DNA of 64,000 nt from Gemmatimonadota bacterium (GTDB lineage: Bacteria > JBHIER01 > G020348925): NCBI GenBank assembly GCA_020348925.1, contig CP070758.1, forward strand, positions 2,766,118-2,830,117. Direction: 5' to 3'. Of the stretch, positions 5,005 to 62,871 are shown piece by piece. The number at the start of each line of letters is the position of its first letter. Positions within the stretch are counted from its first letter, which is position 1. Both the position numbers and the translations under genes were made by a program. The notes under the pieces were generated by a model. The model was not told the origin of the DNA. It was given only the letters and a program-made list of their open reading frames with translations, and ran no database searches.

Positions 5005-5049
5005 GTTTGTAACTCTTGAAGGATACATAGCATCACTGGCTGTTGATAC

Positions 5050-6450
5050 TCACGCCAGAATGTAGATGATCACATCACCCACATTCGTTCCGGTATTCCC
5101 GGTTCGAACAAGGGATGCTCCAATCTTATTAAAGAGTGTATTGCTATCATATCGATCAATGTATGATTGGACATCGATGTTCTGACCTTTGGCACGGACC
5201 AGTGATTCTTTGTCGACTATCACCCCTGCCACATCAGGTAAGTAATCGGAGCCGTCGGTCCCCACACAAACAACAACCCAGTCACCTTCATAGTCTCTCA
5301 TCGCCAACAAGGAGGCAGCAGCATAGTGCTGATTTCTCCCTCCCTTTCCAGGATTTTCGGGTAACTTCGGTGTTGTTTCGCCACCGATTAGGACCACATC
5401 ATACCCTTCATATACTCCACGCTGTATCTCACCCGCCCTGTACTGGGCGACTCTTGCCGGATCACCCTTCTGTTCTGCCGTAACAATGTACGGCGAGTAT
5501 CCCATATCTTTTGCCCTCTGAGCCATCGCCTCTAAAGCATTCCCGTTTTCTCCGATGATATAGTTGTAACATGTATTCAGTTTTTTTGGCGTCTCCTCAA
5601 TTTCACCTCGGATACCTTTTTCTAAGTGAGTTACAATATTTTTGGGTGCTTTCAAGATCAAACCATATTTTTCCAAAACAGCATATGCGTCTGAAAACGT
5701 CGATGAATCCGGATACGTCGGACCGGATGCGATCACATCCAAATCGTTTCCAATCACGTCGGAGATGATGAGGCTGATGACGGTTGCGGGGGAAAAGAAT
5801 TCACCCAGTCGCCCGCCCTTAACCCGTGACAGGTGCTTTCGCACTGCATTGATTTCATAAATTTCCGCACCACTACCGAGTAAGAGTTTCGTTATCTGTT
5901 TTTTCTCATCAAGATCAATCCCGTCCACCGGAGAAGGCATCAACGCAGAACCTCCTCCGGAAATGAGACACAGTACCGTATCTTTTTCATTGATGGAATA
6001 CTGTCCTTTAAGAGTCAGCATCCGTTCAACGCCGTACAAACCCTCATCATCGGGGATAGGGTGTGATGCTTTCACTACATGAATCGGCTGTGTGTCATAC
6101 CCAGTATCGACGCAATTGATAACACCATCTGTAATCCTTTCTTTTCCCATTATTTTTAAGAGCACATCAGCCATTCGTCCAGCTGCCTTGCCCCCTCCTA
6201 TGACAAACAGTCTTCCCTGGGAGAGGTCGTGCTCTTCACCCTGAATCTTGAGGACATTCCGTGTCGAATCATACTCCAGAGTAATGTTCATCGTAATCTC
6301 AGGAAGAACTCTGTGGATTCCGGCCTCGATGATGTCCAAGGCATGCGTTCTGAGCTCAGATGATGCAACTTCATCTTTATTTGTTATAATCATAGTACCC
6401 ACAACCGAAGATAAAAAATCCTCAAACAGGAAGGGGAAGATCGCATTCAT
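5050..6450 (-). CDS. Glycerate 2-kinase, MOFRL family
   Basis: 466 aa cytoplasmic protein of the GckA/TtuD type. Visible hallmarks are 'VIGGGKAAGRMA', 'CLISGGGSALMPSP' and 'VLIGGETTPK ... GKGGRNQ', followed by a C-terminal MOFRL domain with 'CVGTDGSDYLPDVAG'. It should phosphorylate D-glycerate to 2-phosphoglycerate with ATP and so feed lower glycolysis. In a uronate locus, glycerate could arise from oxidation of glyceraldehyde after aldol cleavage of non-phosphorylated sugar acids. The true start may be the internal ATG at 6393 (MIITNKDEV), because the first 19 residues are not typical of the family; neither start has a convincing ribosome site. It sits 54 bases downstream of the HAD phosphatase and 46 bases upstream of the lyase. 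Confidence 0.88.
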   Translation of the reverse strand: MNAIFPFLFEDFLSSVVGTMIITNKDEVASSELRTHALDIIEAGIHRVLPEITMNITLEYDSTRNVLKIQGEEHDLSQGRLFVIGGGKAAGRMADVLLKIMGKERITDGVINCVDTGYDTQPIHVVKASHPIPDDEGLYGVERMLTLKGQYSINEKDTVLCLISGGGSALMPSPVDGIDLDEKKQITKLLLGSGAEIYEINAVRKHLSRVKGGRLGEFFSPATVISLIISDVIGNDLDVIASGPTYPDSSTFSDAYAVLEKYGLILKAPKNIVTHLEKGIRGEIEETPKKLNTCYNYIIGENGNALEAMAQRAKDMGYSPYIVTAEQKGDPARVAQYRAGEIQRGVYEGYDVVLIGGETTPKLPENPGKGGRNQHYAAASLLAMRDYEGDWVVVCVGTDGSDYLPDVAGVIVDKESLVRAKGQNIDVQSYIDRYDSNTLFNKIGASLVRTGNTGTNVGDVIIYILA

Positions 6451-6504
6451 GATTCAAAATGTATATCCCCATCCCGCGTCCTTTCATTTTAATAAAGGAT
6501 GTTC

Positions 6505-7398
6505 TTAAGAGATCTTCCAGGGGGGAATTTCCGGTAGGAGCTTCTCAAATTCATCGATCAACTGCGATTCATACTCTCCGGCATAATCCCCGGCTAAAAA
6601 TTTCTTACATCCCTCCCTGAAGAACCGTTCCCACGATTCCTCCTCCCGTCCCGGATTGACAGGGTAAAACAGTGCTCCATTGGCCCGGGCCGCTTTGAGA
6701 TCTCCGGGTGCATCGCCTACCATGAGTACATGATGATCCTGATATTTTCCTCCGGTGGCTAACTGGATATGTTCTTTTTTGCTTCCCATTTCCTGTCCTG
6801 CAATGATCGCCGCATATGATGCGATACCGTTCTCTTCCCATTCTCTCTGAAGCGCCTCGCCCGGTGTTGCGGAAACGACGACGATATCCGCTGCACGGCT
6901 GAGCATCTCCAAACTCTCCCTGACGAAGGGGAAGGGTGGAACGCCTGTGACCATGTCAGCAATGGCGGCATTGACGGCTTCACTCCATTTTAAGGTTTGG
7001 ATCAAAACGGGATCTTGTGTCCTGTCTATAACCTTTTGCAGCGCCGGATTACCCATGGAAACACCTGAGTTGATGAAATCCCGCAACGATGGAAGGTCAG
7101 GTATGGTTACCTCTCTTTTCCTCACTTCCTCCCGTTCTTTAAGAAGATCAAGGACCATGACCAGAGCAGGAAAACGATTTATGCCTCGCCATTTCGAATA
7201 CAAATTTACAAACTCCGCTGCCTCTCTCGCGTATTTTGAGACAGCCTGAAGATTCCAGTACTTTATGATGTTTGGGATGAAACACTCCTTGTGCTTTATC
7301 TCCATGGAGTCAAAAACACAGCCGTCGGAATCAACGCCGACAAAGTAATCGTGCTTGGGCTGAAATTCACTCAACTTTTTTTGATCAAAATCCTGCAT
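6505..7398 (-). CDS. HAD-superfamily hydrolase, probable sugar-phosphate phosphatase
   Basis: 297 aa from the ATG at 7398, chosen because AAAGGA lies eight bases upstream; a longer reading from 7440 lacks such a site. All four HAD motifs are present: 'VGVDSDGCVFDS' (nucleophile Asp), 'VVVSATP' (motif II), 'GSKKEHI' (Lys of motif III) and 'MVGDAPGD' (motif IV). A helical cap of about 130 residues lies between motifs I and II. It has no signal peptide, so it is a cytoplasmic phosphohydrolase. The substrate is not evident. Its position between kdgK and glycerate kinase suggests a phosphorylated sugar acid or hexosamine phosphate, but this is inference from context only. Confidence 0.85.
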   Translation of the reverse strand: MQDFDQKKLSEFQPKHDYFVGVDSDGCVFDSMEIKHKECFIPNIIKYWNLQAVSKYAREAAEFVNLYSKWRGINRFPALVMVLDLLKEREEVRKREVTIPDLPSLRDFINSGVSMGNPALQKVIDRTQDPVLIQTLKWSEAVNAAIADMVTGVPPFPFVRESLEMLSRAADIVVVSATPGEALQREWEENGIASYAAIIAGQEMGSKKEHIQLATGGKYQDHHVLMVGDAPGDLKAARANGALFYPVNPGREEESWERFFREGCKKFLAGDYAGEYESQLIDEFEKLLPEIPPWKIS

Positions 7399-7444
7399 CT
7401 GATGGGTCCTTTCGGAAATGAAAAAGAAACCTTTATTCACAATC

Positions 7445-8530
7445 CTAACGCTTTATTCTCGCACTCCCCCCTTTTGCGACGTGAAGCACCTCATCCAGGG
7501 TCACCATGTTCGTGTCACCGCGAGTCGTCTGGGTTAAGGCACCGTGGGCAGCCCCAAGGTTTACGCATTCCTGCAGTTCCATCCCACGCAAAAATCCGTA
7601 GATCATGCCGCTACAAAATCCGTCTCCACCGCCGACACGATCTTCGATCTCGAGGTTTTCGTAACGGATGGATGTGTAGAATTGTCCATCATGGTAAAGG
7701 ATAGCCGACCAATTGTTCAACAGGCCACTGACGACCTCGCGGAGGGTCGTTGCCACAACCTGAATATGCGAATAGGTCCCGATCACCCGTTCAACCATGT
7801 CCTTGTATGCCTCGACAGGCAGTCTCTGCAGTGTATCATCCGTACCATTGACTTCAAATCCTAGAACTTTTTGAAAATCTTCCTCGTTGCCAATGAGAAC
7901 TGTAACATAGGGTATCAGTTCCTTTGTAACCTCGATTGCTTTTTCACTCGTCCACAGCTTGCTTCGAAAATTAAGATCATAGCTGACAACTGTTCCTGCC
8001 CTATGGGCGGCCATCATTGCTTCTTGTGCTACTTCCGCACAACTCGCGCTAAGCGCCGTGAAAATACCACCGAGATGAAACCAGCGCACGCCCCGTTCTT
8101 CAAATATTCGCACCCAATCTACTTCGCCAGGCCTCATATGGCTGGCGGCGGAATGACCGCGATCGTAAAGCGTTACACTGGGACGAACTCCGATGCCCAC
8201 CTCCGTAAAATTCAATCCAATCCGGTCGGCTCGCCCTACACCGTCATACGCCACCCACACCACCTCACTCATATCCATGCCTGCCGCTCTGGCATGGTTC
8301 CGAATAAAGAACCCCAATGGATTTTTCACCAATTTCGATATCCAACCCGTTCGCAGACCGAATCTCGATAAGGCGTAGGCAACGTTATACTCTCCACCCC
8401 CTGCCCACGCTTCAAAAGACGAAGTAAACTCTATCCGTTGATGACCGGGAGGACTCAAACGAATCATGCATTCCCCCAATGTCAACACATCCACATCACA
8501 CTCCGAAACAGATCGTATCTTCAAAGCCAT
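7445..8530 (-). CDS. kdgK: PfkB-family sugar kinase, probable 2-keto-3-deoxygluconate kinase
   Basis: 361 aa from the ATG at 8530, which has a near-perfect GAGGAGGT seven bases upstream; the longer reading from 8617 is unlikely. The N-terminus has 'LTLGECMIRLSPPG' and 'WAGGGEYNVAYALSRFG', typical of KDG kinases and ribokinase relatives. The C-terminal 'DRVGGGDGFCSGMIYGFL' holds the catalytic Asp and anion hole. KdgK makes 2-keto-3-deoxy-6-phosphogluconate from KDG and ATP, and the aldolase Eda is encoded further upstream in the same run. KDG would be supplied by KduD. Phosphorylation of a related acid such as gluconate cannot be excluded, since the gene directly follows the LarA-like gene and gnd. 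Confidence 0.87.
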   Translation of the reverse strand: MALKIRSVSECDVDVLTLGECMIRLSPPGHQRIEFTSSFEAWAGGGEYNVAYALSRFGLRTGWISKLVKNPLGFFIRNHARAAGMDMSEVVWVAYDGVGRADRIGLNFTEVGIGVRPSVTLYDRGHSAASHMRPGEVDWVRIFEERGVRWFHLGGIFTALSASCAEVAQEAMMAAHRAGTVVSYDLNFRSKLWTSEKAIEVTKELIPYVTVLIGNEEDFQKVLGFEVNGTDDTLQRLPVEAYKDMVERVIGTYSHIQVVATTLREVVSGLLNNWSAILYHDGQFYTSIRYENLEIEDRVGGGDGFCSGMIYGFLRGMELQECVNLGAAHGALTQTTRGDTNMVTLDEVLHVAKGGSARIKR

Positions 8531-8564
8531 GAACCTAACCTCCTCAGTATTTCCAAAGTTTCGA

Positions 8565-9848
8565 TCAGGAAGTGTCCGTTTTGAGTCTATACAGAACTTC
8601 ACCCGCATTCTCGACAAAAAGAATGCCTTCTTTCTCTCGACCTTTCCATTCGGAAAAATCTATGGTCTCAGCATCCCGACAGCTAAGGTTGATCCGCTCA
8701 CAGGTCTCCGGAGCAATTCCCGTCGCCAGGGTGACTTTAATCCTCGGTTTCTCGATGCCGTTTTCAAAGGTACCGATACCTCGCACATGGGTCGAATGCG
8801 CCAGAACGCACCGCGGAATGTCGCCAAACTTATCCATCTGCTTTAAATAATAGTCACCCACATGATAGCCGATACGATGAAGTATCTCGCCATGAGTATG
8901 CGAGATCTTTGTAATATGAGGAGCATAAATGATAAGCTCTCCCCCATCCGCGACAACGGACTCCAACTTATACATGACCTTTCCCGCAACCCAAATGTCA
9001 TCATAGTAGAGCGGTGCCACACCAAGAACCGTATGAAAAGGTTTTTCAAAGTACTGGATATGAAGTATTTGAGATAAATCAGCCGCGTGTGACCAGGCTT
9101 CTTCGACGCTACCGATGAACAAGCCACTCAGTTTTTTCTCGTGCACCACCATGCAGAAGCATATTCTGGGGACCTCCAAGAGCGACGCCGCTCGGTCCAG
9201 AAGTTTGCGAACAGGATTCTGTTTCGTCCCGTTTATGACCGAATTCGTAATGAGAGCGGACAGCCAATGGAAACAGTGAATGATGCATTCCCCGGCGATC
9301 CCCGGAAAGAGGTACTTGTTCCCGCCGGAAAAACCCGCCACTTCATGCGGCACAACAGGGCTCATAATTATTAAAAAATCGTAGTCGAGAATCATTTTAT
9401 TCAACGTCACTTCGACTTCTTCTTTCAGGAGGTGATTTGAAATGTCATCGATCTCATGCTCCGGTATTGTTCCAATGGTCACTAACGCTTCGGGTTTGTC
9501 ATGGGCGTGATTAAAAAACTTGACTTTTTCATACTTTTGATGGAGCTCCCTCTGCGAAACGCCGACCCGCTCGCAGATTTGCTCCTCATCCATCGGTTGA
9601 TGCGTACCGAGGGCAATCAGATAATCCAAATTCTTCACCTGATCACCGAGCAGCTCAAAAAGCAGTCGAAAGAACACCGGGATGGGGGCATTACGAGTCA
9701 GATCGGGAATAATGACCAGGACACGCTTGTCTCTCAGGTTACATTGAGACAAGGCCTGCTCGGTAAAGGCACGGATCTCGTCCTCGGTGATAGATCCTTG
9801 TTCAAGCCCTTTTCCAATGACCGTACTCACTTCATCCGCTCCTGCCAT
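8565..9848 (-). CDS. LarA-superfamily nickel-dependent 2-hydroxyacid racemase/epimerase
   Basis: 427 aa cytoplasmic protein. The residues that bind substrate and the nickel-pincer cofactor in lactate racemase are all present with matching spacing: D49 and R52 ('PDLTR'), H83 ('GTHQP'), H168 ('VPHEVAGFSGG'), K178 (cofactor lysine) and H194. A second domain fills residues ~230-427. The superfamily inverts C2 of hydroxyacids; members acting on lactate, malate and, from memory, gluconate/mannonate are known. The reading frame overlaps the end of gnd by 22 bases, and its AAGGAGG lies about 16 bases before the ATG, inside gnd, so the two are translationally linked. A sugar-acid C2 epimerase is therefore more likely than a lactate racemase. 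The cofactor-making LarB, LarC and LarE genes are not in the window. Confidence 0.85.
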   Translation of the reverse strand: MAGADEVSTVIGKGLEQGSITEDEIRAFTEQALSQCNLRDKRVLVIIPDLTRNAPIPVFFRLLFELLGDQVKNLDYLIALGTHQPMDEEQICERVGVSQRELHQKYEKVKFFNHAHDKPEALVTIGTIPEHEIDDISNHLLKEEVEVTLNKMILDYDFLIIMSPVVPHEVAGFSGGNKYLFPGIAGECIIHCFHWLSALITNSVINGTKQNPVRKLLDRAASLLEVPRICFCMVVHEKKLSGLFIGSVEEAWSHAADLSQILHIQYFEKPFHTVLGVAPLYYDDIWVAGKVMYKLESVVADGGELIIYAPHITKISHTHGEILHRIGYHVGDYYLKQMDKFGDIPRCVLAHSTHVRGIGTFENGIEKPRIKVTLATGIAPETCERINLSCRDAETIDFSEWKGREKEGILFVENAGEVLYRLKTDTS

Positions 9849-11242
9849 TCTGTATGAAAGACACCCTCCTTGTCTATCCGTCTGTAGGTATGAGCACCAA
9901 AACAGTCACGCTGTGCTTGCAGGAGGTTTGCCGGTAACCGCTCCTGACGATAGCTGTCGATATATCCCAAAGAGGCGCTGAAGGCCAAACAGGGAATGCC
10001 CAACTCATTTGCCGTTCGAACCGCATATCTCAGATCCTTCTGCAATTCATTCACCATTGAGGCGAAATGAGGACTTATCAGGAGATTCACCAACTCATGA
10101 TCTTCTTTGAAAGCTTCCCGAATCGAATCAAGCAGTCGTGCCCGAATTATACATCCCCCTTTCCAGATGCGAGCGATCTCGGCAAACTGTAAGTCAAAGC
10201 TGTATTCCGTGGACGCCTCGCGCATGAGTGCAAACCCCTGAGCATAGGCAGTAACCATAGTCAACTTCATGGCGCAACGTAGCGATTCGATGAATTCTTC
10301 TTTCTTCTCCTTAAACTGTATTGGAGGTCCATGCAACACTCTCGAAGCTTCAACTCGCTCCTTTTTGAAGGCCGATAGAATTCTTGCTTCCACGGCAGCG
10401 TTGACAGTGGGGATGGCCACACCAAGATCGAAAGCATTTTGCGACGCCCACTTCCCTGTTCCCTTTTGACCGGCCTGGTCCAGGATAACATCCACTACAG
10501 GTTGATTTGTTTCATCGTCCACTTTTCCCAAAACGGCAGCTGTCACTTCCATGAGGAAACAGTTCAATTCCCCATCATTCCAAGTGCAATAAATGTCTTG
10601 AACCTCGTCAGCCTTCATCTTAAAGGCTATTTTCAGAATATCATATGTTTCACAGATCAGTTGCATGATGCCGTATTCAATGGCATTGTGAACCATTTTC
10701 ACGTAATGACCTGCTCCTCCCGGACCGATGTATGCGCAACAAGGACCATCGTCAACTTGAGCGGCAATGCGTGTGAGAATGGGTTTTACGAGTTCGTATC
10801 CTTCCTTCCGTCCACCAGGCATAATTGACGGACCCCACAAAGCACCCTCCTCCCCACCCGAAATACCGGCTCCTATAAAATGAAGACCAACTGCATCGAG
10901 TTCCATTCCGCGCCTATCAGTGTCCTTGAAATGAGAATTCCCTCCGTCGATGATAAGATCTCCCTCATTCAGATGCGGTTGTAATTGGCCGATTACTGTA
11001 TCGACAGGATCTCCCGCCGGTACCATGAGGAGTATCTTTTTCGGGGTATCAAGTAATTGAAGAAATTCCTCCAAAGCGTTTGTGACTGATATCTTTTTCC
11101 CAGAAAATTTTTCCTCTGAAACTCTCAATTGTTCGCAAGAGACATCAAGACCTACAACCGAAAATCCGTTACGTTCCATATTCAGAGCAAGATTTCGTCC
11201 CATCACACCCATACCAATAATGCCAATGTCATGTTTCTTCAT
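9827..11242 (-). CDS. gnd: 6-phosphogluconate dehydrogenase, decarboxylating
   Basis: 471 aa, the usual length of the long-form enzyme. The Rossmann fingerprint 'GIIGMGVMGRNLALNM' is at the N-terminus. The substrate site follows with 'IDGGNSHFKDT', 'GISGGEEGALWGPSIMPGG' and 'GAGHYVKMVHNAIEYG'. The C-terminal 'AQRDCFGAHTYRRID' with the following His contributes the phosphate-binding tail. It converts 6-phosphogluconate to ribulose 5-phosphate and CO2 with NAD(P)+. All signature residues are retained, so true 6-phosphogluconate is the expected substrate. Its placement between a mannonate-type SDR and a LarA homologue is unusual and hints that gluconate is made in this pathway. AAGGAAAGG precedes the ATG. 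Confidence 0.95.
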   Translation of the reverse strand: MKKHDIGIIGMGVMGRNLALNMERNGFSVVGLDVSCEQLRVSEEKFSGKKISVTNALEEFLQLLDTPKKILLMVPAGDPVDTVIGQLQPHLNEGDLIIDGGNSHFKDTDRRGMELDAVGLHFIGAGISGGEEGALWGPSIMPGGRKEGYELVKPILTRIAAQVDDGPCCAYIGPGGAGHYVKMVHNAIEYGIMQLICETYDILKIAFKMKADEVQDIYCTWNDGELNCFLMEVTAAVLGKVDDETNQPVVDVILDQAGQKGTGKWASQNAFDLGVAIPTVNAAVEARILSAFKKERVEASRVLHGPPIQFKEKKEEFIESLRCAMKLTMVTAYAQGFALMREASTEYSFDLQFAEIARIWKGGCIIRARLLDSIREAFKEDHELVNLLISPHFASMVNELQKDLRYAVRTANELGIPCLAFSASLGYIDSYRQERLPANLLQAQRDCFGAHTYRRIDKEGVFHTEWQERMK

Positions 11243-11271
11243 TGTGCCTTTCCTTTTGGATGATATGCTCG

Positions 11272-12054
11272 CTAAATCGTCATTGCGGAGAAGCCACCGT
11301 CAATCCGAACGATGGCTCCTGTCACAAAAGACGACGCTCTCTTCGAAGCCAACCAAAGTACTGCCCCTACCAGTTCCTCGGGCTCGCCGAACCGCGCCAT
11401 CGGTGTATGGCGAAAAATAGATTCGATCCGATCCTTTGTCAGCAGTTTGCGATTCTGCTCGGCCGGGAAAAATCCCGGAGCGATGGCGTTGACCCGAACT
11501 CTATGTATCGCCCATTCACGGGCGAGGAACTGGGTAAGATTATTGACACCGGCCTTGGAGATACCGTAGGTAAACACCTTTGAAAGAGGAGGACCTGATG
11601 AGGCGGAGGAAATGTTGATAATACTCCCACCCTCCCCCTGCTCGACCATCCTCTGTCCGAAAATCTGACAGGCAAGAAACATACTTTTTAGATTTACGTC
11701 CAATATCTTGTGCCACTCGTCCTCAGTTATTTCGAAAAAGGGCGTTCCGGAATTAATGCCTGGTGCATTGATGAGGATATCCACGCGCCCCCATGCAGAT
11801 ACAATCTCCCCCCTCGCATGTTCTAATTGCACCCTACTGCTGGCATCCGCTTGGAGAGCCAGAGTTTCCACGTCTGTCTGATTTTTTATGTGAGACATCT
11901 GCTTTTCGGCGCTCTCCTTGTTGATATCCAATATGGCCACGCGGGCACCTGCCTTGGCTAAAGCTCCAGCCATAGCACCGGCCAGCACTCCCCCTCCCCC
12001 GATGACTATGGCAACTTTCTTCTTCAATCCGAAGAGGGATTCGAAATATCCCAT
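11272..12054 (-). CDS. SDR oxidoreductase, probable fructuronate/mannonate reductase
   Basis: 260 aa classical short-chain dehydrogenase. The nucleotide-binding loop reads 'VIGGGGVLAGAMA', a variant of TGxxxGxG, followed by 'ILINAPGIN' and the catalytic set Ser ('ISSASSG'), Tyr and Lys ('YGISKAG'). The C-terminus ends 'VRIDGGFSA'. SDRs of this kind in uronate operons are annotated as D-mannonate oxidoreductases that reduce D-fructuronate to D-mannonate, replacing the long-chain UxuB. Here the gene lies between uxaE, whose product is fructuronate, and gnd, which supports that role. AAAGGAG precedes the ATG. The specific substrate is inferred from context; the SDR fold is certain. Confidence 0.82.
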   Translation of the reverse strand: MGYFESLFGLKKKVAIVIGGGGVLAGAMAGALAKAGARVAILDINKESAEKQMSHIKNQTDVETLALQADASSRVQLEHARGEIVSAWGRVDILINAPGINSGTPFFEITEDEWHKILDVNLKSMFLACQIFGQRMVEQGEGGSIINISSASSGPPLSKVFTYGISKAGVNNLTQFLAREWAIHRVRVNAIAPGFFPAEQNRKLLTKDRIESIFRHTPMARFGEPEELVGAVLWLASKRASSFVTGAIVRIDGGFSAMTI

Positions 12055-12086
12055 GATTTTTCTCCTTTGTCACGACGTCCAAAGAT

Positions 12087-13646
12087 TTAAAGAAAAGGCG
12101 CAATATGCCTTTTCATATGCTGTTCCAAGTTATCGTAATGGACCTCTTCATATATCTTGAGACAATCTCGTATGCGGTCTCGAAATAGATAATTGCCCTC
12201 GCTGTCCTTTTCAGTCAAAACAGAGCCAAAGCCAACATGCAAAACCTGACGAGCATTCTCGTCATCAAATAAAGCTTGAAGCTGATCATCCGAGCAACGA
12301 GTGCCCGCCGGAACATTTTCTATCTCCGCAGAAATGTGATAGGTCGATCTATTCACATGAAATCCCTGCCTGGAGAAATCAAGGATCGCTCTGAAGAGAT
12401 CAGGATTTTTTGATGAAATAGTTTGTAAGGCCACAAGATAGCTCGTTCCTGCCGTTTTGATGTGAACGTATCCACCCCTCAGATTCCCTACGATATGATA
12501 CACGCTGAATTTATCACTGCCGGAATGAAAACTGAGCTTATAGGGCCCCATATGTTGAGAGATGAGTGCATGCTTTTCATATTCTTTCTGAAACCGACCA
12601 AGATCCCCTTTGTAGTCAATGCCCTTTTCAAAATCTCCGATAAAACGTGGAGCAAGGCTTATGAATTTCACTCCCAATCTCTTTAATTCAGTTGCTATGA
12701 AATAATGCTCGAAAGTCGTTGTCACAGCATCCGTCTCATCAACGGACATTTCCAATTCAAAAGGTTTCCCGGACATAGCATCAAGGAGATAATGATACAT
12801 TGTATAGGTATAAAGAATAGCTCTTCCGTATTTCGCAATGGCACGATAGATTTCTTCCCGATCCGGATTCAAAGTCAACCCGTCACTCAGCTTGATGATT
12901 CGCCCTGCGTGTCTTTTTTCGCAGTCTGCGAGAGTGTCCTCCAGCTCGGACCATGCAATGGCACCTACTTTCTCTCTGAGCTCAGCTCCCGAACAGATAT
13001 CGGCTTCGTTATCAACATGATCTCCGGGATCGATGGTATACATCGTGTAGCCCGCCTTTACCATCAGGTCGATATCCTCTTCCGTTTTCAGATGGTCCGC
13101 ATCGGCCCCAAATCCGTCGCGATATCCTTCCTGAAAGACAGCCCACGTGGCTGCATCGATCACTTCCTCAGGTGTGCGCTCGGTCCGAGTGAGCTCCCGG
13201 ATGGATTGCTGGGCCAGAATCGCCTTCATTGATGTTCCCGCAACGGCTCGAATATGGCCAGGCCCCGCCAAGCCCAGTCGATCACCCAAACCAAGGGAAT
13301 GTCCAGGCTCAAGAATCGTGGGAGCAGTAAAGGAAAATAGATTCCGCATCGTTAGCGCATTTTGATGATGCAAGGAGCATTTTTTAAGATTCAACTTCCC
13401 ACGTTCTATATTTTGTGCCACAATTTCACCATTAAAACTTCCCCACCTCGTATCATCACTGCTGTTGAAGAGAATCCACAGATATTTCACCCCACCCGAG
13501 ATACCCAAATAAACATAATCCTCTCCGCTCATTATAATGGACCGAGGATATACCTCAACTTCAAGTGCATCGGAAAATCGAATTGTCCTGCGTTCATGGG
13601 AAAAAGTGTTTTTTGCATCCTCCAGCAATGTCACACATCTCGTCAA
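12087..13646 (-). CDS. uxaE: Tagaturonate/fructuronate epimerase (UxaE family)
   Basis: 519 aa cytoplasmic protein that I recognise as the Thermotoga-type UxaE family. Conserved stretches include 'GLGDRLGLAGPGHIRA', 'AVFQEGYRDGFGADADHLK', 'MYTIDPGDHV' and 'LSFHSGSDKFSVY'. The enzyme epimerises D-tagaturonate at C4 to D-fructuronate, so galacturonate and glucuronate catabolism converge after UxaC. The start is a TTG at 13646, supported by AGGAGG nine bases upstream; no in-frame ATG is better placed. It sits 32 bases after eda and 32 bases before the SDR, consistent with one transcript. The activity assignment rests on family recognition. Confidence 0.88.
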   Translation of the reverse strand: MTRCVTLLEDAKNTFSHERRTIRFSDALEVEVYPRSIIMSGEDYVYLGISGGVKYLWILFNSSDDTRWGSFNGEIVAQNIERGKLNLKKCSLHHQNALTMRNLFSFTAPTILEPGHSLGLGDRLGLAGPGHIRAVAGTSMKAILAQQSIRELTRTERTPEEVIDAATWAVFQEGYRDGFGADADHLKTEEDIDLMVKAGYTMYTIDPGDHVDNEADICSGAELREKVGAIAWSELEDTLADCEKRHAGRIIKLSDGLTLNPDREEIYRAIAKYGRAILYTYTMYHYLLDAMSGKPFELEMSVDETDAVTTTFEHYFIATELKRLGVKFISLAPRFIGDFEKGIDYKGDLGRFQKEYEKHALISQHMGPYKLSFHSGSDKFSVYHIVGNLRGGYVHIKTAGTSYLVALQTISSKNPDLFRAILDFSRQGFHVNRSTYHISAEIENVPAGTRCSDDQLQALFDDENARQVLHVGFGSVLTEKDSEGNYLFRDRIRDCLKIYEEVHYDNLEQHMKRHIAPFL

Positions 13647-13678: not shown

Positions 13679-14350
13679 CTATTGATCTCTCTTTGCCCGG
13701 ATCTTTTCTCTGGCACTGCGGATTATTGCCACAAATTTAGCTGCAAGATCTGTGAGCTGGTTCCACTGTTCATTGCGAATGGCCTCTTTTCTCAAGAGGG
13801 AACCGCCTGCACCCAGAAAATCAGCTCCCGCCTCAATGAACTGTGAGGCGTTCTCCAGATTGATTCCACCTGTGGGCGTGAGCCGGATCCGTGGCAACGG
13901 CCCTTTTATGTCTTTGAAAAACTGTGGGCCTAAAACCGTTGCTGGAAAGACTTTCACCACGTCAGCCCCAGCTTCCCAGGCGCGTAATATCTCCGTCGGT
14001 GTGAATGCCCCAGGCACACACACTTTATCGTAGTTATGGGTTGCCTCTACAATCTCGCCTTTAAAAATGGGGCTGACGATAAACTCAGCACCGGCCGATA
14101 TTGCAGAACGTGCCGTATCGGCATCGAGCACAGTACCAGCTCCGATGAGAACTTTCTGACCCAATTTCCTGGATAGCTCTGTGATGATGTCCAGCGCTCC
14201 GGGGGTCGTCATGGTGATCTCGATACACGAAAGACCGCCCCTGCCTAAAGCTTCAACCACCTGGAGCAAGTTTTGCGTTTCGGCCATCCGTATGACGGCC
14301 ACCAAGCCATCGTCGACCATTCGTTTCAGAATATGTTCTCGTTTCTCCAT
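13679..14350 (-). CDS. eda: 2-keto-3-deoxy-6-phosphogluconate aldolase
   Basis: 223 aa, typical for the bacterial KDPG/KHG aldolase. Visible active-site residues are Arg in 'LVAVIR', Glu in 'IEITMTTPGA' and the Schiff-base lysine K133 in 'DVVKVFPA', as well as the 'TPTGGI' phosphate loop near the C-terminus. It cleaves KDPG to pyruvate and glyceraldehyde 3-phosphate and closes the Entner-Doudoroff branch fed by KdgK in the same run. The ATG is preceded by GGAGAG. It follows the TRAP permease gene by 24 bases, so uptake and catabolism are probably co-expressed. Confidence 0.94.
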   Translation of the reverse strand: MEKREHILKRMVDDGLVAVIRMAETQNLLQVVEALGRGGLSCIEITMTTPGALDIITELSRKLGQKVLIGAGTVLDADTARSAISAGAEFIVSPIFKGEIVEATHNYDKVCVPGAFTPTEILRAWEAGADVVKVFPATVLGPQFFKDIKGPLPRIRLTPTGGINLENASQFIEAGADFLGAGGSLLRKEAIRNEQWNQLTDLAAKFVAIIRSAREKIRAKRDQ

Positions 14351-14374: not shown

Positions 14375-15670
14375 TCAATAGCCGAAGAGTCTGGGTAAAA
14401 ACAGGGTCAGCTCAGGAATGTAGGTAATGATCATCAGGACTACGATCATGACAATAAAGAACGGCAGTAAATACCGGGTTACATCGACAATAGTCGTTTT
14501 TGCGATGCCACATCCGACAAACAGCACCGAGCCCACCGGCGGTGTACACAAACCAATGCATAAGTTGAGGACCATGATGATGCCAAAATGAAGTGGGGTC
14601 AGACCCAACTGAATGACAACCGGCAGGAAAATCGGTGTAAAGATAAGAACCGCGGGCGTCATGTCCATAAAGGTTCCCACGGCCAGAAGAAGAACATTGA
14701 TGATAAGGAGGATAAGGACCTTACTGTCGGTCATGGCTATCAGGGCCGCACTCACATTCTGAGGCAGGTTCTCGTAAGACATGATCCAGGACATGGCCGT
14801 GGAGGTACCGATCAATAACATGACGATGGCCGTGGTTTCGACCGTGGCCAGGAGAATGTCCGGAAGCTCCTTCACTTTAACCTCACGATAGATAACGACG
14901 GCCAAAAGTAAAGAATAGATGACCGCTACGGCGCTGGCTTCGGTGGCGGTAAAGATTCCGGCAATGATCCCCCCGATAACGATGACGACCAGCAGCAGAC
15001 TGGGTATGGCATCGAAGAATTTCTTCACACCCTCCCAAACCGGGAGCCGCTCCCCCACGGGATATTTTTTTCTGACGGCAACAACAGCACAGACACCCAT
15101 CAGGCCCAGGCCGACCAGAATGCCGGGGATATATCCGGCGATGAAGAGGGCGGCAATGGAGACCCCGCCGCTAGCCAGGGAATAGACAATGAGGATATTG
15201 CTGGGAGGAATGAGCAGCCCCGTTGTGGCAGAGGTGACATTGACCGCGGCGTTAAAATTCTTATCATACCCTTCCTTGTTCATCAGTGGAATCATGAAAC
15301 CACCAATAGCCGACGTGGCAGCCACAGCGGAGCCCGAGATGGCCCCAAAAAACATGCAGGCCAGAACATTCACATAGGCCAGACCGCCGGGAAACACACC
15401 GACGATCACCTTGGCAAAATTGATGAGTCTTCGAGCGATCCCTCCTCTTCCCATCAGTTTGCCGGACAGTATAAAGAAGGGGATGGCCAGCAGGGCAAAA
15501 CTGTCCAGACCCGTTGCCATGCGCTGGGCCACGGTGGTCACGGCCGGCCCGGTCTGGACAGTAAACAGCATGGTCAATATCGTGGCAATACCGATACTGT
15601 AGGATATGGGCACACTCACAGCCAGAAGGATGACGAAGCTGATGATCAATACGAATACCGATATGTTCAT
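14375..15670 (-). CDS. dctM: TRAP transporter large permease (DctM/SiaM type)
   Basis: 431 aa, with about twelve hydrophobic helices, the usual size for the large membrane subunit of tripartite ATP-independent periplasmic transporters. Family marks include 'LDSFALLAIPFFILSGKLMGRGG', shortened here to its core GGIARRL region, 'ISGSAVAATSAIGGFMIPLM' core residues, and 'LNLCIGLCTPPVG' near the C-terminus. It uses a sodium gradient to bring an acidic sugar, delivered by the DctP-like protein, across the inner membrane. It lies 13 bases downstream of the small permease and directly upstream of eda. Uronates or unsaturated uronates are the likely cargo given the neighbours. Confidence 0.94.
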   Translation of the reverse strand: MNISVFVLIISFVILLAVSVPISYSIGIATILTMLFTVQTGPAVTTVAQRMATGLDSFALLAIPFFILSGKLMGRGGIARRLINFAKVIVGVFPGGLAYVNVLACMFFGAISGSAVAATSAIGGFMIPLMNKEGYDKNFNAAVNVTSATTGLLIPPSNILIVYSLASGGVSIAALFIAGYIPGILVGLGLMGVCAVVAVRKKYPVGERLPVWEGVKKFFDAIPSLLLVVIVIGGIIAGIFTATEASAVAVIYSLLLAVVIYREVKVKELPDILLATVETTAIVMLLIGTSTAMSWIMSYENLPQNVSAALIAMTDSKVLILLIINVLLLAVGTFMDMTPAVLIFTPIFLPVVIQLGLTPLHFGIIMVLNLCIGLCTPPVGSVLFVGCGIAKTTIVDVTRYLLPFFIVMIVVLMIITYIPELTLFLPRLFGY

Positions 15671-15683
15671 GACTTCAACCTTT

Positions 15684-16214
15684 TCAATCTATAGTTGCTG
15701 TTAATCTTTCATCGGGAATCAGTTTTTCCGTATCCTGTCCCTTCCACTCCATGAATGTTTCGTACATGAAAAAGAAAGAATAATACATCATAATGATTCC
15801 CGTGATGGGAAGGACTGAGTAGACGTAGCCCATTTTGATGCCCAAAGCCGCCGAGACCTGATTCAAGTCGAGGGTGATCTGCACGAGCCTGATCCCTCCC
15901 AGAACAAGAACGGTGAAACTGAAAATAAAGATACACCCATTGACAAAAAATGTTGAAATGTTTCTTTTGATGCCCTTCAATTTGTACGTCAGGATATCAA
16001 TGCCGAGATGGGCCTTGGTTCTCAGGGCATAACTGGCTCCAAGCAACCCTATCCAGATGAGCAGAAACGTCGCCAGCTCCTCAGTAAACGAACTTGGATG
16101 CTGGAGAATAAAGCGGGTGATCACCTGCCAGGTCACATCGAGGACCATGACGGCCATGAGAACAATGAGCACTTTGCTCAATACCGAATCGATCACGGAA
16201 GTCAGTTTTTTCAT
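15684..16214 (-). CDS. dctQ: TRAP transporter small permease (DctQ type)
   Basis: 176 aa with four predicted membrane helices (about residues 10-30, 45-65, 85-110 and 125-150). The family motif 'EELATFLLIWIGLLGASYALR' is represented by 'FTEELATFLLIWIG' and 'ASYALRTKAHLGID'. It is the small membrane subunit that pairs with the large permease encoded 13 bases downstream. AAGGAT lies upstream of the ATG. It carries no catalytic activity and no sign of fusion to the large subunit. Confidence 0.93.
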   Translation of the reverse strand: MKKLTSVIDSVLSKVLIVLMAVMVLDVTWQVITRFILQHPSSFTEELATFLLIWIGLLGASYALRTKAHLGIDILTYKLKGIKRNISTFFVNGCIFIFSFTVLVLGGIRLVQITLDLNQVSAALGIKMGYVYSVLPITGIIMMYYSFFFMYETFMEWKGQDTEKLIPDERLTATID

Positions 16215-16227
16215 ACCTGTATCCTTG

Positions 16228-17214
16228 TTATGGAATCGCCTCTATTTCTTTCATGATCCGATACACAGGTTGTCCACGATAGGATTCGTGCATCGACTGT
16301 ACTTTCTCCTGGAAAGGTGTTTTGTCAGGATAGATCACTTTGACACCGGCCTTTTGCACCTCAGCCAGAGCGTGCTCACTTCCTTCCTTCCACAATGTCC
16401 TTTGATAGTCCACCGATTCATCCACAGCCGCCTGAACCCATTCCTGTTCCTGGGGCGTCAAGCTGTTCCACACATGGGTACTCATAATCAGGATATCGGG
16501 GACAGAGGTGTGTTCATCAAGACTGTAATACTTGCAGACTTCATAGTGTTTGGACAGATAGAAACTCGGAGGGTTGTTCTCCGCCCCGTCGACAACGCCC
16601 TGCTGAAGAGCGGTGTACAACTCACCCCATGAGATCGGAGTTGCCGAACCCCCCAGGGTTTGAATCATTTTCACGGACGTGAGGCTCTTCTGCACCCGGA
16701 TTTTGAGTCCCTCCAGATCGTTGGGATTCTCTATGGGGACTTCCTTGGTGTAGAAACTTCTGCTTCCAGCATCATAGTAACACATCCCCTTCAGATAGTA
16801 TTTCTCCCCGGCAGACAGCAGTCGCTTCCCGATGTCACCCTTGAGCACCTTCCACAGATGATCCTCGTCCCGGAAAATGTATGGGATACTGAAAACCTTC
16901 ATCTCCGGTATGAAACCCTCCAACGGGCTTGTGGACACTTTGGTCATGGCCAAACTGCCGATCTGAAGAAGCTCGACGAGCTCACGCTCTGCGCCCAACT
17001 GCTCACTGGGATAAATATCTATACAGACCTGTCCCCTCGATTTTTGCTCGACCAATTCCGCCATGTAGACCATTCCCCGATGCACGGGATGATTGATATC
17101 CAGGGCGTGGGCCAGTTTCAAGACCCGCACTTTTGATTGGGTCTGGCAGCCGGCCTGAAATATCGATACAAGACAGATAAGAATAAAGAGCTTCTTCAAA
17201 TTCTCAGTTTTCAT
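16228..17214 (-). CDS. dctP: TRAP transporter substrate-binding lipoprotein (DctP type)
   Basis: 328 aa. The N-terminus is a lipoprotein signal with a lipobox 'FQAGC' (Cys at about residue 23), so the binder is membrane-anchored rather than free. The mature protein has the DctP pattern: 'LAHALDINHPVHRGM', 'IDIYPSEQLGAERELVELLQIG', here cited only by its 'SEQLGAERE' core, 'LKIRVQ' with the conserved carboxylate-binding Arg, and 'GVVDGAENNPPSF'. The conserved arginine indicates an acidic ligand, most likely a hexuronate or unsaturated uronate. It is the first TRAP gene of the P-Q-M order and follows a GH31 gene by 12 bases. Confidence 0.93.
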   Translation of the reverse strand: MKTENLKKLFILICLVSIFQAGCQTQSKVRVLKLAHALDINHPVHRGMVYMAELVEQKSRGQVCIDIYPSEQLGAERELVELLQIGSLAMTKVSTSPLEGFIPEMKVFSIPYIFRDEDHLWKVLKGDIGKRLLSAGEKYYLKGMCYYDAGSRSFYTKEVPIENPNDLEGLKIRVQKSLTSVKMIQTLGGSATPISWGELYTALQQGVVDGAENNPPSFYLSKHYEVCKYYSLDEHTSVPDILIMSTHVWNSLTPQEQEWVQAAVDESVDYQRTLWKEGSEHALAEVQKAGVKVIYPDKTPFQEKVQSMHESYRGQPVYRIMKEIEAIP

Positions 17215-19569: not shown

Positions 19570-20334
19570 TCAGAATCCAGGTTGAAAATTGACTTCACTC
19601 CAATCCCGCTCTCCTTCCCGAAGTCCGCACAGAATCCAGACAAAGTTGATCCCGCAGGAAGGCACACCGACATTCTGATGATATCCTTCTTTTATAATGA
19701 CCGCATCGTCTTCAAACACGGGAAGCATTGCTTCAGGATCGCCTCCGTCTGTATAAACACACTGGATACCAAAGTTTGGCCGGGGCATGTCAAAGTAAAG
19801 ATAGACTTCCTCCTTGGAGGCCGCATGCTCGTGAGGCGGCCAGCTGGTCCAGTTCCCCTCTTTTCCAAAGGTAACACCTATCAACAATCTCGAAGCTTCC
19901 ACATTCGTACCGATGATTGTGTACAACTCCCGCATGAATGTCTCCTCACCAAGGGTCTGATGAAGTTCAGGGTCATTTTTTACTTTGGAAAAGGGGACAT
20001 AAGCCGGATCATACTTCTTCGTAACCGGCGCAATGCACTCCACCAGATCCAACTTTTCATCAGTCCGAACCTTGAACTGGCATTTCTGAGGGGTGTAGAC
20101 ACCATCAAAGGGCGATACATCAAAGGTCTGTCCATCCACTTCAATCCGTCCATTCCCGTGGAGACAAATGAGAGAAATTTCATTCTCGTCTGTTTCAACA
20201 GCGATTGGTTCCATACCACTCTCGAGAAGAATTCGTCCGACGGATAAGAACTCGAGATCTGTATTATCAGGTGTTATGGAAACAGAACGTCCCTTTTGAG
20301 CAGCCGTATTTTTTATTAACCATGGATGTTCCAT
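19570..20334 (-). CDS. KduI/IolB-family isomerase, probable 5-keto-4-deoxyuronate isomerase
   Basis: 254 aa bicupin without signal peptide. The second cupin carries the metal-binding cluster 'WPPHEHAASKEEVYLYF', with a further His in 'EGYHQNVG'. The family covers IolB (5-deoxy-glucuronate isomerase) and KduI (5-keto-4-deoxyuronate isomerase). No other inositol genes are present, but KduD is encoded about 3 kb upstream, so isomerisation of the open-chain form of unsaturated uronate is the more likely job. AGGAGAAGAGG lies just before the ATG. It is the first gene after a 253-base gap with a candidate promoter, so it probably opens a transcription unit running through the TRAP and uronate genes. 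Confidence 0.85.
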   Translation of the reverse strand: MEHPWLIKNTAAQKGRSVSITPDNTDLEFLSVGRILLESGMEPIAVETDENEISLICLHGNGRIEVDGQTFDVSPFDGVYTPQKCQFKVRTDEKLDLVECIAPVTKKYDPAYVPFSKVKNDPELHQTLGEETFMRELYTIIGTNVEASRLLIGVTFGKEGNWTSWPPHEHAASKEEVYLYFDMPRPNFGIQCVYTDGGDPEAMLPVFEDDAVIIKEGYHQNVGVPSCGINFVWILCGLREGERDWSEVNFQPGF

Positions 20335-20587: not shown

Positions 20588-22006
20588 TCAGTCCAATTTA
20601 TATGCCTTTTTTACTAGATCATACGCGAGAGCGTGACTTAAGCTTTCTGCTTCACGCTTATCTATAATATGGCGTGCAACCAAGCTTGCCAAAAAATTGG
20701 AGTCAATTCGACGTGACACGTCATGTCGTGCCGGAATCGAGGGGAAAGCCCGGGTGTCATCATTGAAGCCGACTGTATTATACACTCCCGCTGTTTCAAT
20801 AACCCTTTGGCGAAATCGTGTCATGCCTTCAATACTGTCATGGAACCACCACGGAGGACCCAACCGCATTGCCGGGTAATGTCCTGCCAGGGGCGCAAGC
20901 TCCCGAGAGTAAGTCGATTCATCAAGCGTGAAAACAATGAGTGTCAGACGCATATCATTGCCGTAGACATTCAATAATTCCTTCAGATTGTGCGTATATT
21001 CAGTCTGGATTGGGATGTCGCACCCTTTATCGGTTCCGAATTTCTCATAAACGGCCAGATTGTGATCACGATAGGACCCCGGGTGAATCTGCATGACCAG
21101 GCCGTCCTCGATACTCATCCGGGCGAACTCCATGAGCATGTGGGCTGTGAAGTCCGCGCAATCTTCTGTCGTCGACTCAGCCCGGAGTGCCCTCTGGAAG
21201 ATCGATTCCACTTCATTCTCACTAAAACGATGGGTATACGGAACCAGAACGGCATGATCCGTGGATGTCGCCCCCATGGATTTGAAAAATGTACGCCGTT
21301 TTTCCAGAGCTTCGATGTACCTTCGATAAGAATCGATCTCTATTCTCGCCGTTTCACTCAACAGCTCAATATTCGATATCCAGTCCGGTGAAGCGATATC
21401 GACCACGGCATCGGGACGGAAACAGGGAATGACCCGACCATCCCACTCCGATTCCCTAATGGTTTGATGATGTTCCAGCGTATCCGTTGCTTTATCCGTT
21501 GTAGACAAGACCTCGATGTTGAATCGATCGTACAATGCTCTGGGAAGATATGCCGGCGTTTTCAGTTTCTCCTGGATTTGATCGTAGATGTTTTGGGCAG
21601 TCTCTTTATTCAGTTTCTCTTCAATGCCGAACACCTCTTTCAATTCGTGGGCCAGCCATACCCCTGTCGGTGTCCCGGCGAAGAGGGAGAAGTGTTCGCC
21701 AAAGATCTGCCATATCTTCCGGTGATCCGTCTCGGTCCACGATCCATCAACGGTGGGTACTCCCAGAGATTCCATCAGTTTTCCCTGGGAATAGAGCATT
21801 CTGAAAATATAATGGTCAGGAATGAAGATCAATTCCGTCGGATCCGGGAAAGGGCTATTCTCCGAAAAAAGCCTGGGATCCACGTGCCCGTGCGGGCTGA
21901 TAATAGGCAGATCTTTCACCCCTTCATACAGCTCACGGGCGATTTTACGAATTGACGGATCCGGATCGAAAAAGCGGTTCTCATTCAAAATTATTTTCTC
22001 TGTCAT
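20588..22006 (-). CDS. uxaC: Glucuronate isomerase (uronate isomerase)
   Basis: 472 aa cytoplasmic TIM-barrel enzyme of the amidohydrolase superfamily, the standard length. Diagnostic stretches are 'LPIISPHGHVDPRLF' with the metal-binding HxH, 'FNIEVLSTTDKATD', and 'GFNDDTRAFPSIPARHDVSRR' near the C-terminus, represented by the 'FPSIPARHD' core. It isomerises D-glucuronate to D-fructuronate and D-galacturonate to D-tagaturonate. The ATG at 22006 is taken as start; a TTG six bases earlier (22012) has slightly better spacing to AAGGAA and remains possible. Together with UxaE and the SDR it forms the saturated-uronate branch. Confidence 0.95.
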   Translation of the reverse strand: MTEKIILNENRFFDPDPSIRKIARELYEGVKDLPIISPHGHVDPRLFSENSPFPDPTELIFIPDHYIFRMLYSQGKLMESLGVPTVDGSWTETDHRKIWQIFGEHFSLFAGTPTGVWLAHELKEVFGIEEKLNKETAQNIYDQIQEKLKTPAYLPRALYDRFNIEVLSTTDKATDTLEHHQTIRESEWDGRVIPCFRPDAVVDIASPDWISNIELLSETARIEIDSYRRYIEALEKRRTFFKSMGATSTDHAVLVPYTHRFSENEVESIFQRALRAESTTEDCADFTAHMLMEFARMSIEDGLVMQIHPGSYRDHNLAVYEKFGTDKGCDIPIQTEYTHNLKELLNVYGNDMRLTLIVFTLDESTYSRELAPLAGHYPAMRLGPPWWFHDSIEGMTRFRQRVIETAGVYNTVGFNDDTRAFPSIPARHDVSRRIDSNFLASLVARHIIDKREAESLSHALAYDLVKKAYKLD

Positions 22007-22042
22007 TGACAATATTTCTTTCCTTATTTTAAGCTTTCCGAA

Positions 22043-23380: not shown

Positions 23381-24160
23381 TTAACGTGCCATCCATCCCC
23401 CATCGACAACAAGAATATGACCGCTCACGTAGTCGGATGCCTCCGAAGCGAGGAAAACCACAGCCCCTTTTAGATCCTCGGGCTTTCCCCACCGTCCGGC
23501 TGGAATGCGATCCGAGATTTCTTTGAACCTGACTTCATTTTCACGCAACTTTTCCGTCATATCCGTCACATAGTAACCGGGCGCGATGGCATTGACAGTG
23601 ATGCCGTGGGCAGCCCATTCATTCGACAGGGCCTTGGTCAACTGGGCGACACCACCCTTGCTGGCCGCGTATGCCGGAATCGTAATGCCTCCAAAGAAAC
23701 TGAGGAGTGAGGCAATGTTAATGATCTTGCCCCGTTTCTGCTTCAGCATCACTTTTCCAACTTCTTTGCAAAAAAGAAACGTCCCATTCAGATTCACATC
23801 CAAAACAGCATTCCAATCATCGTAAGAAAACTCTTCTGCAGGGCTTCGACGTATCACTCCGGCACAATTGAGAAGAATATCGATTCGACCGAACTCTTCG
23901 ACCGTTCTCTCGACAACTTTTTTTACCTGCGGGTGGTCGGTCACGTCACACGCCATGGGAATTGATTTTTTCCCCAATTTAGTAATTGTCTCCACGATTC
24001 CTTCAAGGTTTTCCAGCCTCGTAGCGACAGCCACAATATCCGCACCTGCCTCTGCCAGACCTTCTGTCATGACCATGCCCAATCCCCGGCTCGCCCCGGT
24101 CACGAGGGCCACTTTACCGTCCAAACGAAATGCATCTACAATGGAAGATCGATTTCCCAT
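23381..24160 (-). CDS. kduD: 2-deoxy-D-gluconate 3-dehydrogenase / KDG 5-dehydrogenase
   Basis: 259 aa classical SDR. It shows 'ALVTGASRGLGMVM' for NAD binding, 'LLNCAGVIRR', catalytic Ser in 'IASLLSF', Tyr-Lys in 'YAASKGG', and the KduD-type tail 'IPAGRWGKPEDLKGAVVFL ... VDGGWMAR'. KduD reduces 2,5-diketo-3-deoxygluconate, formed by the KduI-type isomerase, to KDG. It therefore links unsaturated uronates from lyases and GH105 to KdgK and Eda. GGAGG lies eight bases before the ATG. It follows nagA by 21 bases and precedes the DUF4861 gene by about 50 bases. Confidence 0.92.
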   Translation of the reverse strand: MGNRSSIVDAFRLDGKVALVTGASRGLGMVMTEGLAEAGADIVAVATRLENLEGIVETITKLGKKSIPMACDVTDHPQVKKVVERTVEEFGRIDILLNCAGVIRRSPAEEFSYDDWNAVLDVNLNGTFLFCKEVGKVMLKQKRGKIINIASLLSFFGGITIPAYAASKGGVAQLTKALSNEWAAHGITVNAIAPGYYVTDMTEKLRENEVRFKEISDRIPAGRWGKPEDLKGAVVFLASEASDYVSGHILVVDGGWMAR

Positions 24161-29137: not shown

Positions 29138-29152
29138 GATCATCTCCATTTT

Positions 29153-34849: not shown

Positions 34850-34861
34850 TTGATCGTCTCC

Positions 34862-36013: not shown

Positions 36014-36015
36014 TT

Positions 36016-37476: not shown

Positions 37477-37530
37477 CAGTCTTGTCTCATTATAGTTACA
37501 ATTTATCTATTCTGCTGTATATACTTCCTG

Positions 37531-37557
37531 TTATTCAGGTCAAGTACCGGAATGACA
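37531..37557. repeat. Remnant of the small palindromic element
   Basis: The 82-base gap upstream of the SGSH-like gene holds 'GTTATTCAGG' and then 'CCGGAATGAC', two words that also occur, further apart, in the element at 50189-50272. It looks like an internally shortened copy. The match is short, so chance cannot be excluded. Confidence 0.4.
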
Positions 37558-37558
37558 T

Positions 37559-39154: not shown

Positions 39155-39193
39155 TTCTTTTTACTATTCCATTTGTAATTCTTCCGGAGCCAT

Positions 39194-62805: not shown

Positions 62806-62871
62806 CCCATAGGCTCCTGAGAAATTTAACGTTGCAAGAACAACAATTGATAAAATTAGAATCCTCTTCAT
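61933..62871 (-). CDS. N-terminal part of a triplicated beta-helix surface protein, ending at premature stop
   Basis: 312 aa with a signal peptide ('ILILSIVVLATLNFSGAYG') and a GGGGGG ribosome site before the ATG. It contains the first beta-helix repeat and stops at 'EDPEFLYP', where the other two copies continue '...DPDNFDFTVS'. The frame is open again directly after the TAA with 'NFDFTVSEFFKGIAVGDDG', so the break is a nonsense change, not a frameshift. As it stands, the product would be exported but lack the dockerin-like and sorting modules that lie in the downstream part. See the ORF at 59329-61890. Confidence 0.82.
   Translation of the reverse strand: MKRILILSIVVLATLNFSGAYGQNVIMVDSGYNKISAAFEQAGPGDVIELITNGGTYYETDKVTATFPITIRAAAGLQNKPVWESGGDHVLDIGSSVWLSGIRMTGFVDDEIVDDRDSTKYAMRSADVVDSGYVLICEDMVFDHFGRFDDGVLQGYVYRADAPAVYASEIRFTNCTFTRIPSYGFRFREPSSPPGQFGVLSFENCTFAEIGDYGMRAALISDPGVPDAQIRVNHCTFYGVGNDVIRADDDGANDFTDIVVKNSIFNQTGQIVDASHGTVTYCAELNTNGFNIDDPEAVVENIYAEDPEFLYP

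Follow-up and report, generated by a model that had tools for sequence, protein, structure and literature searches.

A predicted nickel-pincer route from D-mannonate to D-gluconate in a pectin-uronate locus of a Gemmatimonadota bacterium

We examined a 64,000-nucleotide stretch of DNA (the window; positions 2766118-2830117 of contig CP070758.1, assembly GCA_020348925.1) from a Gemmatimonadota bacterium whose genome, a single contig of 5.04 Mb estimated to be about 96% complete, was the sole representative of its phylum among the genomes searched. Within a large polysaccharide locus directed at pectin and uronates, five consecutive minus-strand genes encode the epimerase UxaE, a short-chain dehydrogenase/reductase (SDR), the 6-phosphogluconate dehydrogenase Gnd, a LarA-superfamily enzyme and a PfkB-family kinase. 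Our favored reading, to which we give a probability of roughly 0.7, is that the locus degrades pectin uronic acids by two branches, one for unsaturated uronates through 2-keto-3-deoxygluconate (KDG) and one for saturated uronates in which LarA would convert mannonate to gluconate ahead of Gnd. The genes assigned to the two branches are listed below.

20588..22012, minus strand, UxaC, glucuronate/galacturonate isomerase, entry step (NF002794, 540 bits, cut-off 387; PF02614, 3e-85)
12087..13646, minus strand, UxaE, tagaturonate/fructuronate epimerase (PF16257, 2e-159)
11272..12054, minus strand, SDR, predicted fructuronate reductase of the UxuB/UxaD type (PRK08277 'D-mannonate oxidoreductase', 278 bits, cut-off 281)
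9827..11242, minus strand, Gnd, long-type decarboxylating 6-phosphogluconate dehydrogenase (NF006765, 656 bits, 3e-197)
8565..9848, minus strand, LarA-superfamily nickel-pincer enzyme, predicted D-mannonate/D-gluconate 2-epimerase, GntE (Lar_N, 2e-23; NF052594)
7445..8530 (called to 8617), minus strand, PfkB-family kinase, KdgK-like (PF00294, 1e-27)
19570..20334, minus strand, KduI/IolB-type isomerase, unsaturated-uronate (KDG) branch, opening the unbroken run of genes (PF04962, 4e-32)
23381..24160, minus strand, KduD-type SDR, KDG branch (TIGR01832, 333 bits, cut-off 338.85)
13679..14350, minus strand, Eda, KDPG/KHG (2-keto-3-deoxy-6-phosphogluconate/4-hydroxy-2-ketoglutarate) aldolase, last step of the KDG branch (TIGR01182, 194 bits, cut-off 156)

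Substrates, cofactors and flux in this scheme are predicted from gene identities, conserved residues, co-location, the presence of larB, larC and larE, and gene absences. UxaC would isomerize saturated uronates to tagaturonate and fructuronate, UxaE would interconvert the two, and the SDR would reduce fructuronate to D-mannonate, spending NADH. The nickel-pincer LarA would then invert C2 of D-mannonate to give D-gluconate, a kinase (PfkB being the best guess) would convert D-gluconate to 6-phosphogluconate, and the locus Gnd would turn this into ribulose-5-phosphate and CO2, regaining NADH. Unsaturated uronates would pass by way of KduI and KduD to KDG and on through PfkB and Eda. An earlier note on positions 7445-12054 had proposed such a bypass from the gene order uxaE, SDR, gnd, larA, pfkB; coordinates and profile matches confirm this order, with UxaE lying just beyond that range. 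The note had gluconate formed 'instead of KDG', which holds for saturated uronates but not for the locus as a whole, since a KDG branch for unsaturated uronates shares it.

The assignment of LarA as a D-mannonate/D-gluconate 2-epimerase is supported by its residues and by the company its relatives keep. The protein aligns with the gluconate 2-epimerase GntE2 of Thermotoga maritima (PDB 4nar) over its length at 35% identity (E 4e-60). R52, K178 and H194, which bind the nickel-pincer nucleotide, and the catalytic D49, H83, H168 and K290 all align with GntE2 and are invariant across six sequences; the earlier note had listed every one of these except K290. A Glu-Val/Ser loop and a Trp in alpha-11 are marks of LarA hexonate groups 18-20, which include GntE1 and GntE2 (Desguin et al., PMC7583248), and the window LarA keeps both, as E169-V170 after the catalytic His and as W286. 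Its best NCBIfam match is NF052594, 'putative hexonate epimerase' (1e-53, 182 bits). The nearest protein found is the LarA of Embleya (42% identity), and identity to group-18 proteins is 27%; it is placed outside group 18 and may belong to group 20 or a neighboring group. The likelier start is GTG 9830 rather than ATG 9848, because AGGAG stands eight bases upstream of it and it overlaps gnd by the classic four bases, GTGA. The 22-base overlap noted earlier thus requires ATG 9848 and shrinks to four bases with the favored start.

Related LarA genes occur within the uronate loci of four other, unrelated lineages, and we take these contexts as independent support for D-mannonate and D-gluconate as the probable substrates. 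A contig scan with short patterns yielded three loci, and searches of plasmids were more informative. On a Thermotogota contig, polygalacturonase, gnd, a GntR-like regulator, uxaE, SDR, gntE and an FGGY kinase (gntK) are consecutive. On the Saccharobesus litoralis plasmid NZ_CP026605.1, a gntK-larA fusion is accompanied by larE, larB, uxaE, gnd and uxaC. This fusion is a single reading frame at 9491-11260 of the examined stretch, comprising a group-18 LarA (NF052594, 619 bits) and a gluconate kinase of the GntK type; the accessible text of a publication on uronate genes in this strain makes no mention of it. The fusion ties the epimerase directly to gluconate, and it supports gluconate as the likely product of group 18, a group named merely as putative hexonate epimerases. 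A Catenovulum adriaticum plasmid carries uxaC, TRAP (tripartite ATP-independent periplasmic) transporter genes, gntK, larA, larC and larB, with larA and gntK overlapping by one base. The Embleya sp. plasmid NZ_CP108785.1 has the order uxaC-larB-larE-fructuronate reductase-larA-larC, together with a LacI-like regulator; its genes carry no annotation, and the names other than uxaC and larA are our own reading of the sequences. This Embleya locus, at 4894-12447 of the examined stretch of a linear megaplasmid, forms a complete and compact nickel-pincer uronate module with no gnd nearby.

The genome also holds the genes for the nickel-pincer cofactor: larC (488 bits) adjoins larB (306 bits) at 517323-519100, and larE (347 bits) is at 3462726. 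By contrast, searches for dehydratases acting on mannonate or gluconate came up empty. UxuA, absent from the window as noted earlier, has no PF03786 match anywhere in the genome, so that two of the three findings named earlier as capable of refuting the proposal, a uxuA gene in the same regulon and a lack of larB, larC and larE, do not apply. The IlvD/Edd family likewise had no match in the whole genome, while all 14 control genomes matched; in a genome estimated to be 96% complete this also implies that the synthesis of branched-chain amino acids is probably absent or atypical. The genome's MR_MLE_C matches comprise two dipeptide-epimerase-like proteins of about 360 residues and enolase (names from our own reading of the sequences), with no mannonate dehydratase of the enolase type among them. 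An alternative dehydratase route to KDG, by an IlvD/Edd gluconate dehydratase or an enolase-type mannonate dehydratase, was dropped for want of these matches. Since no mannonate or gluconate dehydratase was found in the genome, mannonate would have no exit other than the LarA bypass.

The window Gnd appears to be the next enzyme in the route, as had been proposed. It keeps the 6-phosphogluconate tail (R445 and H451), and because a housekeeping group of zwf, short-type gnd (with Asn-Arg-Thr) and rpe stands apart near 1.217 Mb, we regard the long-type window Gnd as a dedicated second, catabolic copy. The coenzyme motifs of the SDR and Gnd point in the same direction. An Asp at the end of beta-2 is the classical mark of NAD(H) use among SDRs; the window SDR has Asp43 at this position, where alignment places Ser-Arg in the Thermotogota SDR, and it is predicted to use NAD(H). 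Gnd reads D33-V34-S35 where NADP enzymes (those of Thermotogota and Saccharobesus and the short Gnd of this genome) have Asn-Arg-Thr/Ser. Asp at the Asn32 position marks NAD-preferring 6-phosphogluconate dehydrogenases, and the N32D/R33L/T34S substitutions in T. maritima Gnd raised its Km for NADP from 0.005 to >100 mM (PMC5090862), which predicts that the window Gnd uses NAD+. With both enzymes of the NAD type, Gnd would restore the NADH that the SDR consumes, and we predict no net redox change between uronate and ribulose-5-phosphate. The earlier suggestion that it yields reducing power is therefore doubtful. The matched switch contrasts with the NADP-type motifs of both enzymes on the Thermotogota contig, a comparison of two systems only.

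Phosphorylation of gluconate is less easily assigned. Neither GntK (TIGR01313) nor FGGY (PF00370) gluconate kinases had a match in the genome, although both profiles matched in controls, and the earlier idea that the PfkB protein serves as gluconate kinase now looks doubtful. Its likelier start is ATG 8530, with GGAGG upstream, rather than TTG 8617. The nearest solved structure is T. maritima KdgK (2afb, 251 bits), and the protein is the sole KdgK-like member among the genome's five PfkB-family proteins; the others (ribokinase type, HldE and others) gave no BLAST match to it at the cut-off used and were set aside as KDG or gluconate kinases. The KDG-recognition residues of the Sulfolobus solfataricus enzyme are G34, Y89/90, Y103/106, R105/108, R167, D251 and D287 (PMC5334617). 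By our own mapping via the Thermus thermophilus enzyme, the window PfkB keeps six of the seven, with Asn in place of Tyr89, and its GGAEAN motif reads GGGEYN. We considered this odd pocket as a sign of gluconate specificity, but it lost weight because the nearest relative found, a Streptomyces protein with 43% identity and the same pocket changes, sits in a KduD-Eda-PfkB operon. Given that relative, the company of KduI, KduD and Eda, and the lack of another KdgK-like kinase, PfkB most probably acts on the KDG supplied by KduI and KduD. In the absence of any other recognizable gluconate kinase, the simplest completion of the pathway would be a PfkB that phosphorylates both KDG and gluconate, our best guess for this step at perhaps an even chance. 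A characterized 2-ketogluconate kinase of the PfkB kind acted on 2-keto acids, and none of the tested substrates named in the accessible part of the report is a plain aldonate (PMC6651773).

Several observations weigh against the proposed bypass. The gluconate phosphorylation is its weakest step: with no FGGY or GntK kinase found and a PfkB that resembles a KDG kinase, one step is left without an enzyme. The NF052594 score of LarA falls well below the 500-bit cut-off of this group-18 profile, and indeed the protein lies below the cut-off of every curated LarA subfamily in the NCBIfam comparison, though the Thermotogota GntE reaches none of these cut-offs either and scores only 192 bits against NF052594. 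A second LarA encoded at 2278993, of the LarAH10/malate-racemase-like (hydroxyacid-racemase) type and with neither the Glu-Val loop nor the alpha-11 Trp, could alone account for the presence of larB, larC and larE. The absences depend on profile searches in a genome short of complete, and UxaA and UxaB of the altronate route were not seen among the window genes, no genome-wide search for them having been made.

These weaknesses leave room for other explanations. LarA may act on another acid, such as an aldarate, altronate or the 2-hydroxy acid of another sugar, with Gnd merely a duplicated pentose-phosphate enzyme. The failure to reach any subfamily cut-off would fit this, and group 19 has been suspected of a substrate other than mannonate owing to its high Km (Desguin et al., PMC7583248). 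The signature residues nevertheless indicate mannonate and gluconate, as do gene neighborhoods featuring fructuronate reductase, gluconate kinase and gnd, and a housekeeping gnd is already present with zwf and rpe, so that we consider this explanation unlikely, if the foremost of the alternatives. The order of the two middle steps could also be reversed, a kinase making 6-phosphomannonate that LarA or another enzyme epimerizes to 6-phosphogluconate for Gnd. These activities have been demonstrated in extracts of Lactobacillus suebicus, a galacturonate fermenter with UxaC, UxaE and UxuB (PMC6978723), and such an order would suit a genome in which no orthodox gluconate kinase was found. However, the closest characterized LarA relatives use free D-mannonate (for GntE2, Km 17 mM and kcat 197 per s; PMC7583248), the LarA sequence has no evident phosphate site, and in relatives a gluconate kinase adjoins or is fused to LarA, an arrangement compatible with either order. 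We therefore think phosphorylation before epimerization quite improbable.

Least probable in our view is that the main flow runs from KDG through KDPG to pyruvate and glyceraldehyde-3-phosphate by PfkB and Eda, with the KDG formed from mannonate or gluconate by an unrecognized type of dehydratase. PfkB and Eda do share the gene run and resemble a KDG pathway, but KduI and KduD would supply them with KDG without any dehydratase, and UxuA, IlvD/Edd and a ManD-like protein were all not found in the genome. The mannonate-to-gluconate bypass thus remains the reading we prefer. A more ambitious version of it, in which saturated uronates have no route but the bypass, the matched NAD switch of reductase and Gnd keeps it redox neutral, and a PfkB acting on both KDG and gluconate completes it as a third, previously unrecognized kind of gluconate kinase, is tentative and on balance doubtful.

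The surrounding genes fit a supply of both kinds of uronate. From KduI (20334) to a heparinase II/III-like gene (2623) no intergenic gap exceeds 54 bases, and the run reads KduI, GH31, TRAP P/Q/M, Eda, UxaE, SDR, Gnd, LarA, PfkB, HAD, glycerate-kinase-like, heparinase-like. A 253-base gap precedes KduI, with UxaC, a DUF4861 gene, KduD, a NagA-like gene and GH88 upstream of it. Together with a GH28 polygalacturonase at 45208-46851, GH88 would provide the locus with saturated and unsaturated uronates. The window TRAP genes are 54-65% identical to those adjoining uxaC, gntK and larA on the Catenovulum plasmid. The remaining genes of note in the run are as follows.

14375..17214, minus strand, TRAP transporter DctP/DctQ/DctM, probable uronate uptake (PF03480, PF06808)
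6505..7440, minus strand, HAD-family phosphatase, 4 bases downstream of PfkB (PF13419, 8e-8)
5050..6450, minus strand, glycerate 2-kinase-like protein, DUF4147/MOFRL (PF13660, 3e-73; PF05161, 3e-25)

The phosphatase and glycerate 2-kinase-like genes (5050-7440) belong to the same run as PfkB and have no place in the proposed pathway. Elsewhere in the window, four sulfatases at 33446-41125, with a radical-SAM/SPASM protein among them that is probably their maturase, suggest that the wider locus acts on a sulfated polysaccharide. Secreted beta-helix proteins built of near-identical repeated blocks are encoded at 59329-62871, and the larger of them carries dockerin and Por secretion C-terminal sorting domains. 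Two pectin-locus proteins (2623-5028 and 27137-29149) likewise end in dockerins.

The pathway itself is already known. A route from mannonate through gluconate and 6-phosphogluconate to Gnd was proposed for Thermotoga by Rodionova 2012 (as cited in PMC6978723 and PMC7583248), the activity of GntE2 was demonstrated in vitro in 2020 (PMC7583248), and a further GntE was reported in 2024 (PMC11770544). The UxaR-regulated T. maritima locus gnd-uxaE-uxaD-gntE-gntK, as described in PMC3750489 and PMC7583248, shares with the window UxaE, an SDR reductase, a GntE-type LarA, a long-type Gnd and the proposed route. T. maritima has in addition a kdgA-kdgK-uxuB-uxuA operon, and its gluconate kinase is of the FGGY type, whereas in the window genome neither UxuA nor an FGGY kinase was found and PfkB occupies the place of the kinase. 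The Saccharobesus and Catenovulum plasmid loci resemble the window in uxaC, LarA and larB/larE, along with uxaE and gnd in the former or TRAP genes in the latter, and differ in their GntK-type kinase. The L. suebicus route from galacturonate to phosphoketolase, also redox neutral to ribulose-5-phosphate, begins with UxaC, UxaE and UxuB and continues through 6-phosphogluconate and Gnd, but there mannonate is phosphorylated prior to epimerization by the products of genes that were not identified (PMC6978723). What distinguishes the window is the apparent exclusivity of the bypass for mannonate, the NAD-type motifs in both SDR and Gnd, and the lack of any known kind of gluconate kinase among the genome's matches.

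The gluconate kinase gap is a defined point in the pathway, within reach of one enzyme assay, and a redox-neutral conversion of uronate to pentose, if true, would be of interest for engineering the conversion of pectin waste. In Thermotoga the bypass coexists with the UxuA route, leaving its use in the cell open; a genome with no findable dehydratase offers a clean test case.

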